41,236 nucleotides of DNA. Origin: an uncultured Saprospiraceae bacterium (GTDB lineage: Bacteria > Bacteroidota > Bacteroidia > Chitinophagales > Saprospiraceae). Within the stretch, counting starts at the first letter, position 1; each line of letters opens with the position of its first letter. Made by a program: the position numbers and the translations under genes. Shown one piece after another: positions 32,172 to 37,517 of this stretch. Location of the stretch: contig CALDSS010000093.1 of NCBI GenBank assembly GCA_937924495.1, positions 1-41,236 on the forward strand, given 5' to 3'. Below the pieces are notes generated by a model. It saw only the letters and a program-made list of their open reading frames with translations. It was not told where the DNA came from and made no database searches.

Positions 32172-34688
32172 ATGAATGTACATTTACGAAACACTAAATT
32201 TTGGTCTGTCATAGGCATTCTGCTCTTCGCAGTTTGTGGTGTGATTGGTCAAAATTACAAAATTGACCCACCTGAGGAGTACGAGGTCGTTCAGGGTCAA
32301 ACTTATGACTATGTTTACAGTCACTACGGCCCACAACAGTTTACTCGAATTGTAAACAATTTAACGAGTAACTATCACGGAATCTATAACAACTCCTCAA
32401 ACCCTCGTCCTCAAAGAATTGGGGCTACCTCTTACAAAATTTCTTACAATACTAATGTTGGAACGATTGGGTTAGATACACTAACAATTGAATATTTCGC
32501 TTCAGGTTTTACCTTTCAGCGAAGAATCGTTTTTAATGTAGTGCCATCTATAGTAAGGGCTGAGGATGATTTTATATGTATTCCTTTGGGAGCTTCCGTC
32601 GGAATTCCGATTGAAAATAATGATTACAGCAATAGAAGTGTTTTGAATATCACGGATATTTCTGTTGAAAATAACGGATCTGTTTCCGTTGCTAATAACA
32701 TTGCTACATTCACGCCTTCTAATAATTTTGAAGGATTAGCAAATTTCAATTATGTTATCTGTGATGATATTGGGACCTGCGACAAAGCAACAGTACATGT
32801 GTGTGTTGGAGATCCGAATGGGTATGCCAACAGTACAATCGATTTGATCACCAAAAAGAATAAAAATCTCCCTGTATTTACTCCATTAGACGACTACTCA
32901 AACACTCAAAATCCATCTAATGGTACCCTAACAAGCATGAATGGAATCCTTTACTATTCTCCAAATGCGGGATATCACGGGGCTGATGAGTTTAAATACA
33001 CCCACAATATTACTGGCATTGTGAAAACTATTGCAGTTGATGTTTTAGATATTGAGGCTAACAATGAATATGTAAAGGATGATTTAGGTTATACATTCAT
33101 TGATGATTCCTACATTATTAATGTAACGGAAAATGATGAATTTGGAATTAGTCTCTTCAATGTAGGTATTGTAAATGGGCCAAATAACGGAAGCGTTGTT
33201 CAGGTTCCAGGACTGAAAGGGATTTATATTTACACTCCTAATCCTGGATTTACAGGAATTGACGAGTTTACCTATTCTGCTTCTCCAGCTTCCAATGGCT
33301 CAAATCCAGAAGAAGGGATTGTTTCTATTATTGTTAATGATTTGAACCCTGCTTTTCCAACCTTTGACCTAAGGACGCCCGTAAATACGCCATTAGTAAT
33401 CGATTATAATATAGAACCAACTTCCTTTATTTTTAATATTACTAGTAATCCAACAAAAGGGAATGTAATTTTTCTACCTGGGATTGTAGATACTACAATT
33501 AGCAACCAAGTAATTAAAGGAAATAACATAGTTGTCTATACTCCTAATTTGAATGCTACAGGGCACGACGAATTTGAGTTGGAATACTGTGCCGGAATTG
33601 GAACTAATTGCCCAACAGTCAAGGTAAACGTTGATGTTCAAAATATTATGTCTAGCAATATTTGTTTTGGAACAGACTGCGTTTGGCCTGGAGATGCAAA
33701 TGATGATGGAATTGTGAACTTGAAAGATATGTTGCCAACGGCTTGGTGTATCGGTGATGTCGGAACCTCAAGATATAGTGCCACCATAAATCCTTGGCAC
33801 GGACAAAGTAGTACTAACTGGGGAATTGTTTTTCCTCATACAGATGTTGATTTGAAGCATTTGGATTCAAATGGAGATAGTTTAATCAACATTTCTGATA
33901 CAACTGCTATTGGTCAACATTATCAGAAAAACCATAGTCTTTCTCCTACACCTATTAGCTTTCCAGCAAATATTCCTTTGTTTTTGGGCACACCTGATAC
34001 CATTCATGTAGTAGGACCTGGAGATACTATCCGAATTCCAATTATCCTTGGAGATCCAAGTTATCCTGCAAAAAATATGTATGGCTTAACTTTTAATATT
34101 GATTATGACCCAACTGTGGTCAATCCTTCTGGAACGAATATTCACTTTGATAAAGAAAGTTGGGCTAATTATACTTCCCCTGTAATGAACATGGTAAAAT
34201 CTCCCTTTATAGGAAGATTAGATGCGGCATATTCTCGAACCAACGGTGTAACAACTGATGGGTATGGAAGAGTAGGCTATGTTGATTTCGTCATTATTGA
34301 AGATTTAGAGTTTCAAAAACTTCCAGAAAAATTCTTCGCCAGAATCAATGGTAGTTTCTTTGACGGTAATGGAGGTTACACTGATTTCGATGAGTCATTC
34401 GTTACCTTTAAATTCAGAGACCAAGAAGATGTTAAGCGTGGTAATGATGTTCAATTATTTCCTAACCCTACTTCTGATTATATAAATTATCAGGCAGTGG
34501 ATGGAAATGAAAATATTAATGAAATTGAAGTATTCGACATTGCAGGAAAAGCTGTTCTAAGAGCTTCTCATCAACAATTAAATGGTAGAGTAAATACTTC
34601 AGATTACCACTCTGGCGTTTATGTAATACGTTTAAATACAACTACTGGAGTTGTAACTAAGAAGTTTAGAGTAATATCTGGTAGATAA
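32172..34688 (+). CDS. T9SS-secreted multidomain protein: cadherin/Ig-like repeats, dockerin-like Ca-binding pair, cohesin-like module, T9SS C-terminal domain
   Basis: Repeated YTPNxGFTGxDEFTY units; DANDDGIVNLKDMLP and DSNGDSLINISDTTAI; IRIPIILGDPSYPAKNMYGLTFNIDYDPTVV; LFPNPTSDYINYQAV...VFDIAGKAVL. Confidence 0.8.
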   Translation: MNVHLRNTKFWSVIGILLFAVCGVIGQNYKIDPPEEYEVVQGQTYDYVYSHYGPQQFTRIVNNLTSNYHGIYNNSSNPRPQRIGATSYKISYNTNVGTIGLDTLTIEYFASGFTFQRRIVFNVVPSIVRAEDDFICIPLGASVGIPIENNDYSNRSVLNITDISVENNGSVSVANNIATFTPSNNFEGLANFNYVICDDIGTCDKATVHVCVGDPNGYANSTIDLITKKNKNLPVFTPLDDYSNTQNPSNGTLTSMNGILYYSPNAGYHGADEFKYTHNITGIVKTIAVDVLDIEANNEYVKDDLGYTFIDDSYIINVTENDEFGISLFNVGIVNGPNNGSVVQVPGLKGIYIYTPNPGFTGIDEFTYSASPASNGSNPEEGIVSIIVNDLNPAFPTFDLRTPVNTPLVIDYNIEPTSFIFNITSNPTKGNVIFLPGIVDTTISNQVIKGNNIVVYTPNLNATGHDEFELEYCAGIGTNCPTVKVNVDVQNIMSSNICFGTDCVWPGDANDDGIVNLKDMLPTAWCIGDVGTSRYSATINPWHGQSSTNWGIVFPHTDVDLKHLDSNGDSLINISDTTAIGQHYQKNHSLSPTPISFPANIPLFLGTPDTIHVVGPGDTIRIPIILGDPSYPAKNMYGLTFNIDYDPTVVNPSGTNIHFDKESWANYTSPVMNMVKSPFIGRLDAAYSRTNGVTTDGYGRVGYVDFVIIEDLEFQKLPEKFFARINGSFFDGNGGYTDFDESFVTFKFRDQEDVKRGNDVQLFPNPTSDYINYQAVDGNENINEIEVFDIAGKAVLRASHQQLNGRVNTSDYHSGVYVIRLNTTTGVVTKKFRVISGR

Positions 34689-34755
34689 AGATATAAAGAG
34701 TCCGAATGAACTCTTTTCAATCCAAATCATTCATAGAATTTTATCATTGCAAGTG

Positions 34756-34789
34756 AGTCGTATATCGTTTTGATGTACGACTTTTTTTT
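34756..34789 (+). terminator. Terminator of the preceding T9SS-protein gene
   Basis: AGTCGTATATC-GTTTT-GATGTACGACT, 11-bp stem with one wobble, then 8 T. Confidence 0.9.
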
Positions 34790-35027: not shown

Positions 35028-35130
35028 GGCTGAATTTTATTCACAAATACATGCAGATGTACTATAAAACAGGGTTGATATGCTGCATATTTGTATCGTG
35101 AAGTTGAATAAAGAGGTAGAAAGAAGCAAT

Positions 35131-35152
35131 GACACTTTAAAAGTTTAGTGTC
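35131..35152. other. Hairpin GACACT-TTAAAAGTTT-AGTGTC just upstream of repeat unit 1
   Basis: Inverted repeat read directly. Confidence 0.5.
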
Positions 35153-35159
35153 CACAAAA

Positions 35160-35255
35160 TGTAGATTATGTTCATGGGATTATAATTTGTTGGTAGCAAG
35201 TCGTCCTACCCTCATGGCCGGCTTGCTATTTTTAACAAACCCATCAAAATCTACA
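35160..35255 (+). ncRNA. Candidate structured RNA unit U1 of the GTTCATGGGATTA family
   Basis: TGTAGATT(35160-35167)/AATCTACA(35248-35255) outer stem; motif 35170-35182; TAGCAAGTCGTCC/GGCCGGCTTGCTA hairpin, then TTTTT. Confidence 0.5.
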
Positions 35256-35264
35256 CATTGAAAG

Positions 35265-35360
35265 TTTTATGTTCATGGGATTATAATTTGTTAGTAGTGA
35301 GTCGTCCCTTCACCCTCTTGAAGGGACACTTACTATTTTTAAATTACAACCCTGATAAAA
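35265..35360 (+). ncRNA. Candidate structured RNA unit U2 of the same family
   Basis: TTTTAT(35265-35270)/ATAAAA(35355-35360) outer stem; motif 35271-35283; 17-bp hairpin with bulged C at 35295-35335, then TTTTT. Confidence 0.5.
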
Positions 35361-35368
35361 ATACAAAA

Positions 35369-35390
35369 CTCAATCGGTGGGACGATTGAG
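35369..35390. other. Hairpin with GTGGGA loop (X1)
   Basis: CTCAATCG-GTGGGA-CGATTGAG, perfect 8-bp stem. Confidence 0.7.
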
Positions 35391-35420
35391 TAGCATTTTT
35401 CCCCAAAGGGAATAAAAAAA

Positions 35421-35442
35421 GTCAGACAGTGGGATGTCTGAC
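35421..35442. other. Hairpin with GTGGGA loop (X2)
   Basis: GTCAGACA-GTGGGA-TGTCTGAC, perfect 8-bp stem. Confidence 0.7.
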
Positions 35443-35449
35443 CTTCAAG

Positions 35450-35518
35450 TTCGCGTTCATGGGATTAACCTGTTAATAGCAGTACATGGGAAATTTAACT
35501 GTGTTAATCTGACGCAAA
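35450..35518 (+). ncRNA. Candidate structured RNA unit U3 of the GTTCATGGGATTA family
   Basis: GCGT(35453-35456)/ACGC(35512-35515) outer stem with neighbouring pairs; motif 35455-35467; inner hairpins TTAAC-CT-GTTAA and TTAAC-TGT-GTTAA. Confidence 0.4.
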
Positions 35519-35532
35519 TATAAAGGGATTTT

Positions 35533-35556
35533 ACATTTAAACAAAAGTTTAAATGT
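35533..35556. other. Hairpin ACATTTAAAC-AAAA-GTTTAAATGT
   Basis: Perfect 10-bp inverted repeat. Confidence 0.6.
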
Positions 35557-35586
35557 TAATTTCTTTAATTTAATAGGCAATTATTG

Positions 35587-35647
35587 TTTTTGGATATGTT
35601 CATGGGATTACCCTTTTAATGGGTAAAGGCTAAAAAAGCCACAAAAA
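35587..35647 (+). ncRNA. Candidate structured RNA unit U4 of the GTTCATGGGATTA family
   Basis: TTTTTG/CAAAAA possible outer stem; motif 35598-35610; TTACCC-TTTTAAT-GGGTAA and GGCT-AAAAA-AGCC hairpins. Confidence 0.4.
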
Positions 35648-35650
35648 TTC

Positions 35651-35679
35651 AAAGCCACATCGTCAGATGTGGCTTTTTT
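35651..35679. terminator. Terminator at the end of the repeat region and/or of the convergent response-regulator gene
   Basis: AAAGCCACAT-CGTCAG-ATGTGGCTTT followed by T-run. Confidence 0.88.
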
Positions 35680-35729
35680 ATTTTGCGATTAACCTTAATT
35701 GGTTACCAATAATTTTGTTTGGAAAATAT

Positions 35730-36446
35730 CTAAATTCTATTCTTATTGACCACCTCGTAAATTCTATCTCGATAGTTTTTTCCGATTGGAAGGTGTTTCG
35801 GGCTACCTTTTTCAATCACTTCTACCATATTTCCTATCACTGCCTTTATTTTTTGTGTATTGACAATATAGGAACGATGGATTCTTTGGAAGTTGTTAGT
35901 CGGTAGTTTTGCTTCAAGAGCCTTCATTGTTTGGAGGGTAATTACTCTTCCCGTTTCCATTTTTATGATGACGTAGTCCTTTAAACCTTCTATGTATATA
36001 ATATCCGAATAATTGACTTTGATTAGTTTCTTATCTGCCTTTACAAAGAAGTAATCCAAATCAGATTGAATGGAAGTTGTTCCTCCTTTTTGCAAATCTA
36101 ATTGCTCTTTTGCCTTATTTACTGCCTTTAGAAATCTATCCAAAGAAATTGGCTTAAGCAAATAATCAATCGCATTGAGCTCAAATCCTTCTAAAGCGAA
36201 ATTTGGGTAAGCGGTAGTGAAGATTACCAAAGGAGGATTTTTCAGCGTTTTCAAAAACTCAGTCCCAGTTATTTGTGGCATTTCAATATCCAAGAGCATT
36301 AAATCAACATCCTCCTCTTGAAGAGCAGTCATTGCTTCCATAGCATTATTACACTTCCTAACCAGTTTTAAATCTGATAATTGACTTATATAGGTTTCTA
36401 AAACATCTTGAGCAAGGGGTTCATCATCTACAATAAGTACATTCAT
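35730..36446 (-). CDS. LytTR-family response regulator
   Basis: VLIVDDEPLAQDVLETYI, DLMLLDIEMPQITGTEFL, LKPISLDRFLKAVNKA; LytTR IIYIEGLKDYVIIKMETGRVITLQTMKALEAKLPTNNFQRIHRSYIVN. Confidence 0.95.
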   Translation of the reverse strand: MNVLIVDDEPLAQDVLETYISQLSDLKLVRKCNNAMEAMTALQEEDVDLMLLDIEMPQITGTEFLKTLKNPPLVIFTTAYPNFALEGFELNAIDYLLKPISLDRFLKAVNKAKEQLDLQKGGTTSIQSDLDYFFVKADKKLIKVNYSDIIYIEGLKDYVIIKMETGRVITLQTMKALEAKLPTNNFQRIHRSYIVNTQKIKAVIGNMVEVIEKGSPKHLPIGKNYRDRIYEVVNKNRI

Positions 36447-36467
36447 AATTGAGTATGTTTTGGTGAT

Positions 36468-37517
36468 TTATTGTGTATTTAATTTAAGTCTGACGGTGTA
36501 GACATCTGGGGCATCTTCGATTTCTAAATCATGTTTATTCGCATAAAGTAAATTCAATCTCCTTTTTACATTTACTAATCCTATACCTCCAGCACGTTTG
36601 TGCTCTTGATAGGGTAGGGAATTCGGTTTGCTATTTCTTACTTCAAAATTCAATTCTTTATCAATTACTTTGATGTTTAATTCAACAAAGCCTTTTTCCA
36701 AACTATTTTTAATACCATGTTTGAAACAATTTTCAATGAAGGTAATCAATAACAAAGGAGCTATTTTTTGATGCCCAACACTACCTTCTAAATTAAAGGA
36801 AATTTCTACATTATGCTGTTGTCTTATTCTTTCAAGATCAAGATAGTTCTTAATATAGTTTAGTTCTTTGCTCAATAACACTTTCGGTTCGTTGCATTCA
36901 TACAACATATAACGCATCATTTCAGATAGCTTAATTACAATCTCAGGAGCTTGATCTGATTTTTTTAAGGTGAGCGCGTATAGATTGTTTAACGTATTAA
37001 AAAGGAAATGCGGATTAATCTGAGAGCGCAAAAACTTTAATTCAGACTGCATATTCTGTGTCTCCAAGTCTTGTTTTTCTTGAATCTGGGCAGCCCATTC
37101 CGTAACTATATTATATATGGTAGAAAAACCGCCAACGAAAAAATTAGAAAGTAGAATTAATCCTTGGTTATGTATTAGTTGATTGATACCGGCTGGTTCA
37201 TTATGCAAGTTCAGATATAAGGCAAAGGTCTTTATTGGAGAAAGGATAAGAATGAACAGGCCAAGAAATAAAAAGTATTGACTAAACTTATTTTTCTTTA
37301 AATATCGTGGGATGAAGTAAAATAGGTTGGAATAAACGATTAGCGCATAAAACGATATGTTGATTAATTCATAGGATAAAGTATTCCAAAAGCCAATATG
37401 AATCCCTTCAACAATAATTAGAAGACAAAGAAAGGTCAGCCAAAATATCAAATGGTGAATCCATTTGATATTAGTTGATTTAATTTTGGTCGATATGTTG
37501 GTTCCTATGGAAGTCAT
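36468..37517 (-). CDS. LytS-like sensor histidine kinase (His_kinase family)
   Basis: N-terminal TM helices; LKFLRSQINPHFLFNTLNNLYALTLKKSD; PLLLITFIENCFKHGIK; GGIGLVNVKRRLNLLY. Confidence 0.95.
   Translation of the reverse strand: MTSIGTNISTKIKSTNIKWIHHLIFWLTFLCLLIIVEGIHIGFWNTLSYELINISFYALIVYSNLFYFIPRYLKKNKFSQYFLFLGLFILILSPIKTFALYLNLHNEPAGINQLIHNQGLILLSNFFVGGFSTIYNIVTEWAAQIQEKQDLETQNMQSELKFLRSQINPHFLFNTLNNLYALTLKKSDQAPEIVIKLSEMMRYMLYECNEPKVLLSKELNYIKNYLDLERIRQQHNVEISFNLEGSVGHQKIAPLLLITFIENCFKHGIKNSLEKGFVELNIKVIDKELNFEVRNSKPNSLPYQEHKRAGGIGLVNVKRRLNLLYANKHDLEIEDAPDVYTVRLKLNTQ

Follow-up and report, generated by a model that had tools for sequence, protein, structure and literature searches.

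Two candidate convergent small-RNA genes in a tandem motif array of an uncultured Saprospiraceae bacterium, with predicted pairing at start codons

The window analyzed here is a stretch of 41,236 nucleotides (nt) from an uncultured Saprospiraceae bacterium (assembly GCA_937924495.1, contig CALDSS010000093.1, positions 1 to 41,236). Its subject is a tandem array of four units (U1 to U4), which had originally been predicted to encode a multi-copy family of plus-strand noncoding RNAs. The repeated motif, GTTCATGGGATTA, occurs in four exact copies in the same orientation, as that prediction held (plus strand, at 35170, 35271, 35455, and 35598), with no fifth exact copy in the window, where 1.5 occurrences would be expected by chance at up to two mismatches. 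Contig C107 of the same genome carries two further copies. The interval was also correctly described as gene-free, since no open reading frame (ORF) of at least 80 amino acids (aa) lies between 34688 and 35730 and no tRNA was found in the array interval. The reported excess of TGGGA is real, with seven plus-strand occurrences between 35131 and 35685 (at 35175, 35276, 35378, 35430, 35460, 35487, and 35603) compared to 0.43 expected at the window's own density. Terminator-like sites number seven in the array interval and 0.4 in shuffled sequences; the plus-strand site at 35651-35676 is among them, in agreement with the claim that a plus-strand RNA ends at 35651-35679, and the T-runs claimed after the U1 and U2 hairpins are found in the units. 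No match to Rfam at the gathering score was obtained for the window and related loci, which upholds the predicted novelty; matches below that score (MicC, BTnc231, RsaE, and mir-627) were dismissed as being at chance level. The RNA family is apparently undescribed: the literature searched yielded no papers on it, nor on base-pairing small RNAs (sRNAs) of Saprospiraceae.

The prediction of a multi-copy family is supported by homologues across many genomes of Saprospiraceae. When the array was used as a DNA query, relatives turned up in 21 of 41 genomes, every one in the window's family, and GTDB species genomes scanned for an exact 23-mer gave at least 120 matches. Among the 23-mer matches listed, the titles are nearly all Saprospiraceae, Saprospirales, or broader Bacteroidetes/Chitinophagales bins, and they include two cultured species whose genomes carry arrays, Phaeodactylibacter luteus and Flavilitoribacter nigricans, and one bin labeled Thermoanaerobaculia. 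The 19-mer core TTCATGGGATTATAATTTG is conserved in Saprospiraceae, in most genomes of the family. Because 63 genomes of the window's family contain this core at up to one mismatch, compared to 1 of ~212 genomes from the other families of the order, with zero matches for the reversed-pattern controls, the motif array is, on these counts, a conserved family trait. In these and the following comparisons the assemblies are mostly metagenome-assembled genomes, terminators and classes were called with simple scripts, and the statistics ignore phylogeny.

In an alignment of 246 units, a conserved linear segment, ~TTTGGATATGTTCATGGGATTATAATTTGTTA, is followed by a hairpin whose sequence varies and by a T-run, the arrangement of a conserved 5′ segment and a Rho-independent terminator. 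U1, U2, and a shortened U4 follow this design downstream of a conserved promoter, and we call their plus-strand product the sense (S) RNA. A promoter-like block, CACAAT ... TTTTTGTCYTTGT ... GCATATTTGTATCGTGA, is common to many arrays ~75 to 85 nt upstream of the first unit; used as a whole-genome pattern, the S promoter matches almost only arrays (0 matches for the reversed-pattern control). Arrays contain 1 to 6 units, mostly 2 to 3. Because the downstream neighboring gene lies on the opposite strand in 61 cases and on the same strand in 53, the arrays appear to be stand-alone genes, and this nearly random orientation led us to reject a cis-acting attenuator or riboswitch of the downstream gene.

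The original prediction had placed the motif at the inner edge of a variable closing stem, as the conserved feature. Such a stem is supported in the first units of multi-unit arrays, where the duplex energy is −5.84 kcal/mol versus −5.17 kcal/mol with swapped partners (0/200 swaps as good), and the U1 outer stem has a compensatory change (TGTAGATT/AATCTACA in the window versus GGTTGATT/AATCAACC in locus L019). In inner units (118/200) and last units (154/200) the stem is not significant, being no better than partner swaps. What is conserved is instead the motif as a linear segment of primary sequence, ~22 to 26 nt long, as would be expected of a pairing seed or a binding site. The existence of the RNA is well supported, and its transcription is probable as judged from the sequence. 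Three other readings of the motif were rejected. The tiny ORF ATG-TTC-ATG-GGA-TTA-TAA (MFMGL) loses its frame and stop in U4, U3, and other variants, and the conservation is at the nucleotide level; an internal promoter (TATAAT) gives one sigma-70-like match (U2, 35258-35287), fewer than in shuffles, with a spacing that is not kept elsewhere; and a common function of neighboring genes is contradicted by the variety of genes both upstream and downstream.

The claim that all four units are read on the plus strand fails for U3, which is better read on the minus strand, as part of a second sRNA (A) that bears the exact complement of the motif. This convergent minus-strand gene, overlooked in the original prediction, extends with its promoter from 35544 to 35414 (Table 1). 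An intrinsic terminator on the minus strand is present inside 33 of the 133 arrays, mainly those with at least 3 units, and about half of the 33 have a TTG-N18..20-TAnnTT(T/C)G promoter upstream of it; the predicted A RNA of these arrays follows the promoter and has a 3′ part, AATCCCATGAAC..., with the terminator. Predicted A-S duplexes reach ~−20 to −44 kcal/mol in 30 of the 33 loci, whereas shuffled sequences give ~−13 kcal/mol. Of the 27 internal substitutions in the A core, 23 are A>G or C>T, so that G·U pairing to the invariant S is retained, and positions at which no wobble is possible are unchanged. Because these substitutions are asymmetric and keep the wobble, RNA-RNA pairing is favored over a DNA site, and the complementarity of S and A is, at the level of predicted pairing, well supported.

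Anti-motif RNAs are also encoded in trans. Stand-alone RNAs with a similar promoter carry 1 to 3 anti-motif segments, followed by a hairpin, GGTATGTAGATAGCCTCTCAAAGCTCTTTT, and a strong terminator. We found GGTATGTAGATAGCCTCTCAAAGCTCTTTT in 25 of 120 family genomes, in up to 8 copies each (controls, zero). The trans-encoded A RNAs were detected in 11 of the 33 S-positive genomes and in 0 of the 13 S-negative genomes (P = 0.015, without phylogenetic correction), and no Rfam match to them was found. They make up a second apparently undescribed multi-copy RNA family (loci L198, L199, L204, L218, L230, and L238-L249), in which the 23-mer GGTATGTAGATAGCCTCTCAAAGCTCTTTT almost never varies and might act as a separate seed. 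Separately, tandem CAAATTATAATCTCATGAA segments ~100 to 400 nt apart, partly S-type with GAGA seeds, were seen on the minus strand of L193 and at L250, L252, and L282.

There is an AUG in the complement of the S seed, and the original prediction had likewise overlooked that the motif complement resembles a start-codon region. In related genomes the complement, CUAUUAACAAAUUAUAAUCUCAUGAA, lies at the start codons of lipoproteins and of secreted proteins of the type IX secretion system (T9SS)/HYR/CHU_C type, as well as in the second multi-copy RNA family. The anti-S pattern TATAATCYCATGAAD, which leaves out standard S units, has ~165 matches in 248 family genomes, whereas the reversed pattern has ~12 and the composition-matched control TATAACTYCATGAAD has 17. 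Among the 136 matches examined, 58 are S-type (GAGA or variant seeds), 12 are A-type, 21 begin ORFs of at least 80 aa, and 45 are unclassified, several of the last being A- or S-like by eye. Signal-peptide, lipobox, or transmembrane/membrane-anchor N termini are encoded at 14 of the 21 ORF starts (~1 in the control set), and these 14 include HYR, CHU_C (T9SS), and dockerin proteins and one protein of at least 1500 aa. Upstream of the pattern, pairing extends over 79 positions in the 14 predicted targets versus 58.8 ± 5.4 in shuffles (0/500), and no such extension is seen at the control sites (59 versus 60.9). The best target pairing, at L328, has ~29 continuous pairs and −35 kcal/mol; in silico, then, the S seed pairs with target start-codon regions. 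No ortholog of the same-genus target L310 was found in the window's genome.

S units are also found outside the arrays. They lie before terminators of chromosomal mRNAs, for example that of a thioredoxin-like gene of the window's genome (L192). The motif was detected in five IMG/VR contigs and in none of the GenBank phages or PLSDB plasmids. On one of these contigs (L039:6654-6672), the S motif and a terminator-like hairpin are located between a tail-tube-like gene and a tape-measure gene, downstream of a tail sheath gene.

We therefore favor, as the probable interpretation, two overlapping and convergent sRNA genes: S, a start-codon-pairing sRNA resembling FopS of Bacteroides, and A, a target-mimic decoy. 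S would be transcribed from the promoter at 35042-35101, starting ~10 nt past ATATTTGTA, as tandem units of the linear seed AUGUUCAUGGGAUUAUAAUUUGUUA and a terminator-like hairpin, with possible ends at U1, at U2, and at the strong terminator that follows U4. The seed is predicted to pair with the translation initiation region of its targets, 5′-CUAUUAACAAAUUAUAAUCUC-AUG-AA-3′, across the start codon, most likely repressing the translation of secreted or surface proteins. The A sRNA (~35414-35510), which carries a copy of the start-codon region, would pair with S and presumably neutralize it by titration. Related genomes combine these pieces in other ways, as arrays of 1 to 6 units, S units before the terminators of mRNA 3′ untranslated regions (UTRs) and phages, and stand-alone multi-copy A RNAs. 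More tentatively, and with less confidence than in the two genes themselves, we suggest a circuit throughout the family in which tandem start-codon sRNAs and antisense or separate decoys control a secreted, T9SS adhesin-like regulon and phage copies tap the host circuit, perhaps to the benefit of the phage.

Several observations weigh against the two-gene interpretation. The S unit is often found in 3′ UTRs too, which is needless for a purely trans-acting sRNA, and the decoy is not a general feature, as an internal A gene is missing from many arrays. The 14 targets include four homologous pairs, leaving ~10 independent cases, and their signal peptides were judged by eye. The window's own genome offers only a weak target candidate (L195, TTAAATCCC-ATG-AAG, a lipoprotein). 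Folding puts the GGG of the motif in weak pairs, so that the single-strandedness of the seed is an assumption, and the TAATTTG half of the seed is missing from U4 of the window. Transcripts, their ends, and their processing are deduced from DNA.

The roles could be reversed, with the A RNAs as the regulators, the S arrays as their sponges, and the start-codon matches imitated by A only through descent. The S sites are multi-copy and arrayed, as is typical of sponges, and a further conserved segment of the A RNAs, GGTATGTAGATAGCCTCTCAAAG, might be a seed of their own. We nevertheless consider this reversal unlikely, because it is A that behaves as the drifting, wobble-keeping partner of an invariant S, the enrichment at start codons is for the complement of S and not of A, S units are present in genomes without detected A, and the phage S stands alone. 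Even less probable is a protein-titrating RNA of the CsrB/RsmZ kind, in which UGGGA in loops or single strands binds CsrA or an RRM protein. The seven UGGGA, some in the loops of hairpins with varying stems, and the RRM protein encoded in the genome fit such a role, but CsrA had 0 matches in the window's own genome (85.9% complete) and was found in only 1 of the 21 genomes searched, on which ground a CsrB-like sponge was rejected. In addition, the conservation of ~22 to 26 nt extends far beyond a GGA site, and the UGGGA hairpins of the array make better sense on the minus strand, as terminators whose loops are UCCCA. That the motif marks or strengthens intrinsic terminators on either strand, at the DNA or RNA level, is very improbable: it does directly precede terminators in arrays, 3′ UTRs, and the phage tail operon, but with only a handful of copies per genome it is missing from most terminators, and neither the strand-asymmetric wobble substitutions nor the start-codon matches would be expected of a termination element.

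Table 1. Predicted features of the array locus, in window coordinates
Feature	Position	Strand	Remarks
Degenerate S-like element (TTCATAGAATTTTATCATTGCAAGTGAGTCG) and intrinsic terminator	34728..34788	+	just past upstream T9SS gene (32172-34688)
S promoter, CACAA ... CATATTTGTATCGTGA	35042..35101	+	kept upstream of first units in many arrays
5′ leader hairpin GACACTTTAAAAGTTTAGTGTC	35131..35152	+	stem letters vary, pairing persists in L016, L018, L019
Sense unit U1	35160..35255	+	outer stem 35160-35167 / 35248-35255, variable hairpin, T-run
U1 S motif ATGTTCATGGGATTATAATTTGTT	35168-35191	+	copy search, unit alignment
Sense unit U2	35269..35340	+	S motif 35269-35292, hairpin 35304-35327, T-run
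Hairpin, GTGGGA loop on plus; TCCCAC loop and T-run on minus	35368..35391	.	terminator scan
A sRNA gene holding U3	35414..35510	-	~95 nt, RNA ends predicted
A terminator AGGTCAGACATCCCACTGTCTGACTTTTTTT	plus 35414-35444	-	terminator scan
A target-mimic segment CTATTAACAGGTTAATCCCATGAACGCG	plus 35452-35479	-	inside A sRNA gene
A promoter TTG-N19-TATATTTG	35515..35544	-	Bacteroidota -33/-7 consensus; similar arrangement in other genera
Sense unit U4	35596..35679	+	shortened S motif (TTTTTGGATATGTTCATGGGATTA), strong plus-RNA terminator 35651-35679

Around the array, the element at 34728-34788 has counterparts at L020 and L207, which show a matching arrangement with TTCGTGGAATTATAATCATTG; at all three loci a degenerate related element, TTCRTGGAATTWTAATCATTG, stands before the terminator of the upstream T9SS gene. 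In several genomes the array is preceded by a T9SS gene, and at L210 (G020:C53:1497-1556) a homologue of that gene has an array-type promoter in front of it, which suggests shared transcriptional control. Convergent with the array are genes for a LytTR response regulator and a histidine kinase (35730-37517, minus strand), a pair that some members of the genus keep beside the array.

Both the sea and activated sludge harbor abundant Saprospiraceae. If the two-gene interpretation is true, the whole family would have a FopS-like post-transcriptional layer over its surface proteins, and multi-copy start-codon sRNAs would be more general in Bacteroidota. It would also add a compact arrangement, an sRNA array with a nested antisense decoy, in which the relation of sRNA and decoy can be tested by base changes.

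The FopS family of Bacteroides comprises 14 paralogous sRNAs, in which a conserved, single-stranded seed at the 5′ end is combined with a Rho-independent terminator; one copy is in a phage, and FopS pairs near the start codons of susC mRNAs and is countered by the RRM protein RbpB (PMC11697453). S, known here from sequence alone, resembles FopS/GibS in architecture, in its multi-copy nature (several paralogous copies per genome), in having a phage copy, and in its predicted targeting of start codons, and the RRM protein of the window's genome might act on it. It differs in belonging to Saprospiraceae and not Bacteroidaceae, in its tandem units within one locus, in the convergent decoy RNA inside that locus and the second multi-copy decoy-like family, and in its predicted targets, which are secreted proteins of the T9SS/HYR/CHU_C type and not SusC. 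The Rfam scan detected no sequence relation between S and FopS/GibS, although a FopS model was possibly not in the Rfam copy used. We conclude that S would work like FopS, without evidence of common descent.

Like CsrB and RsmZ, the array has numerous GGGA motifs flanked by a promoter and a terminator, some of them lying in hairpin loops; its conserved motif is, however, far longer and has a complementary partner RNA. Sponges and target mimics of sRNAs are represented by SroC for GcvB and the chbBC leader for ChiX. Like them, the predicted A RNA includes a replica of the target site and is complementary to the seed of the sRNA, but it is encoded within the sRNA gene, in antisense orientation, and there is also a separate multi-copy family of such RNAs.
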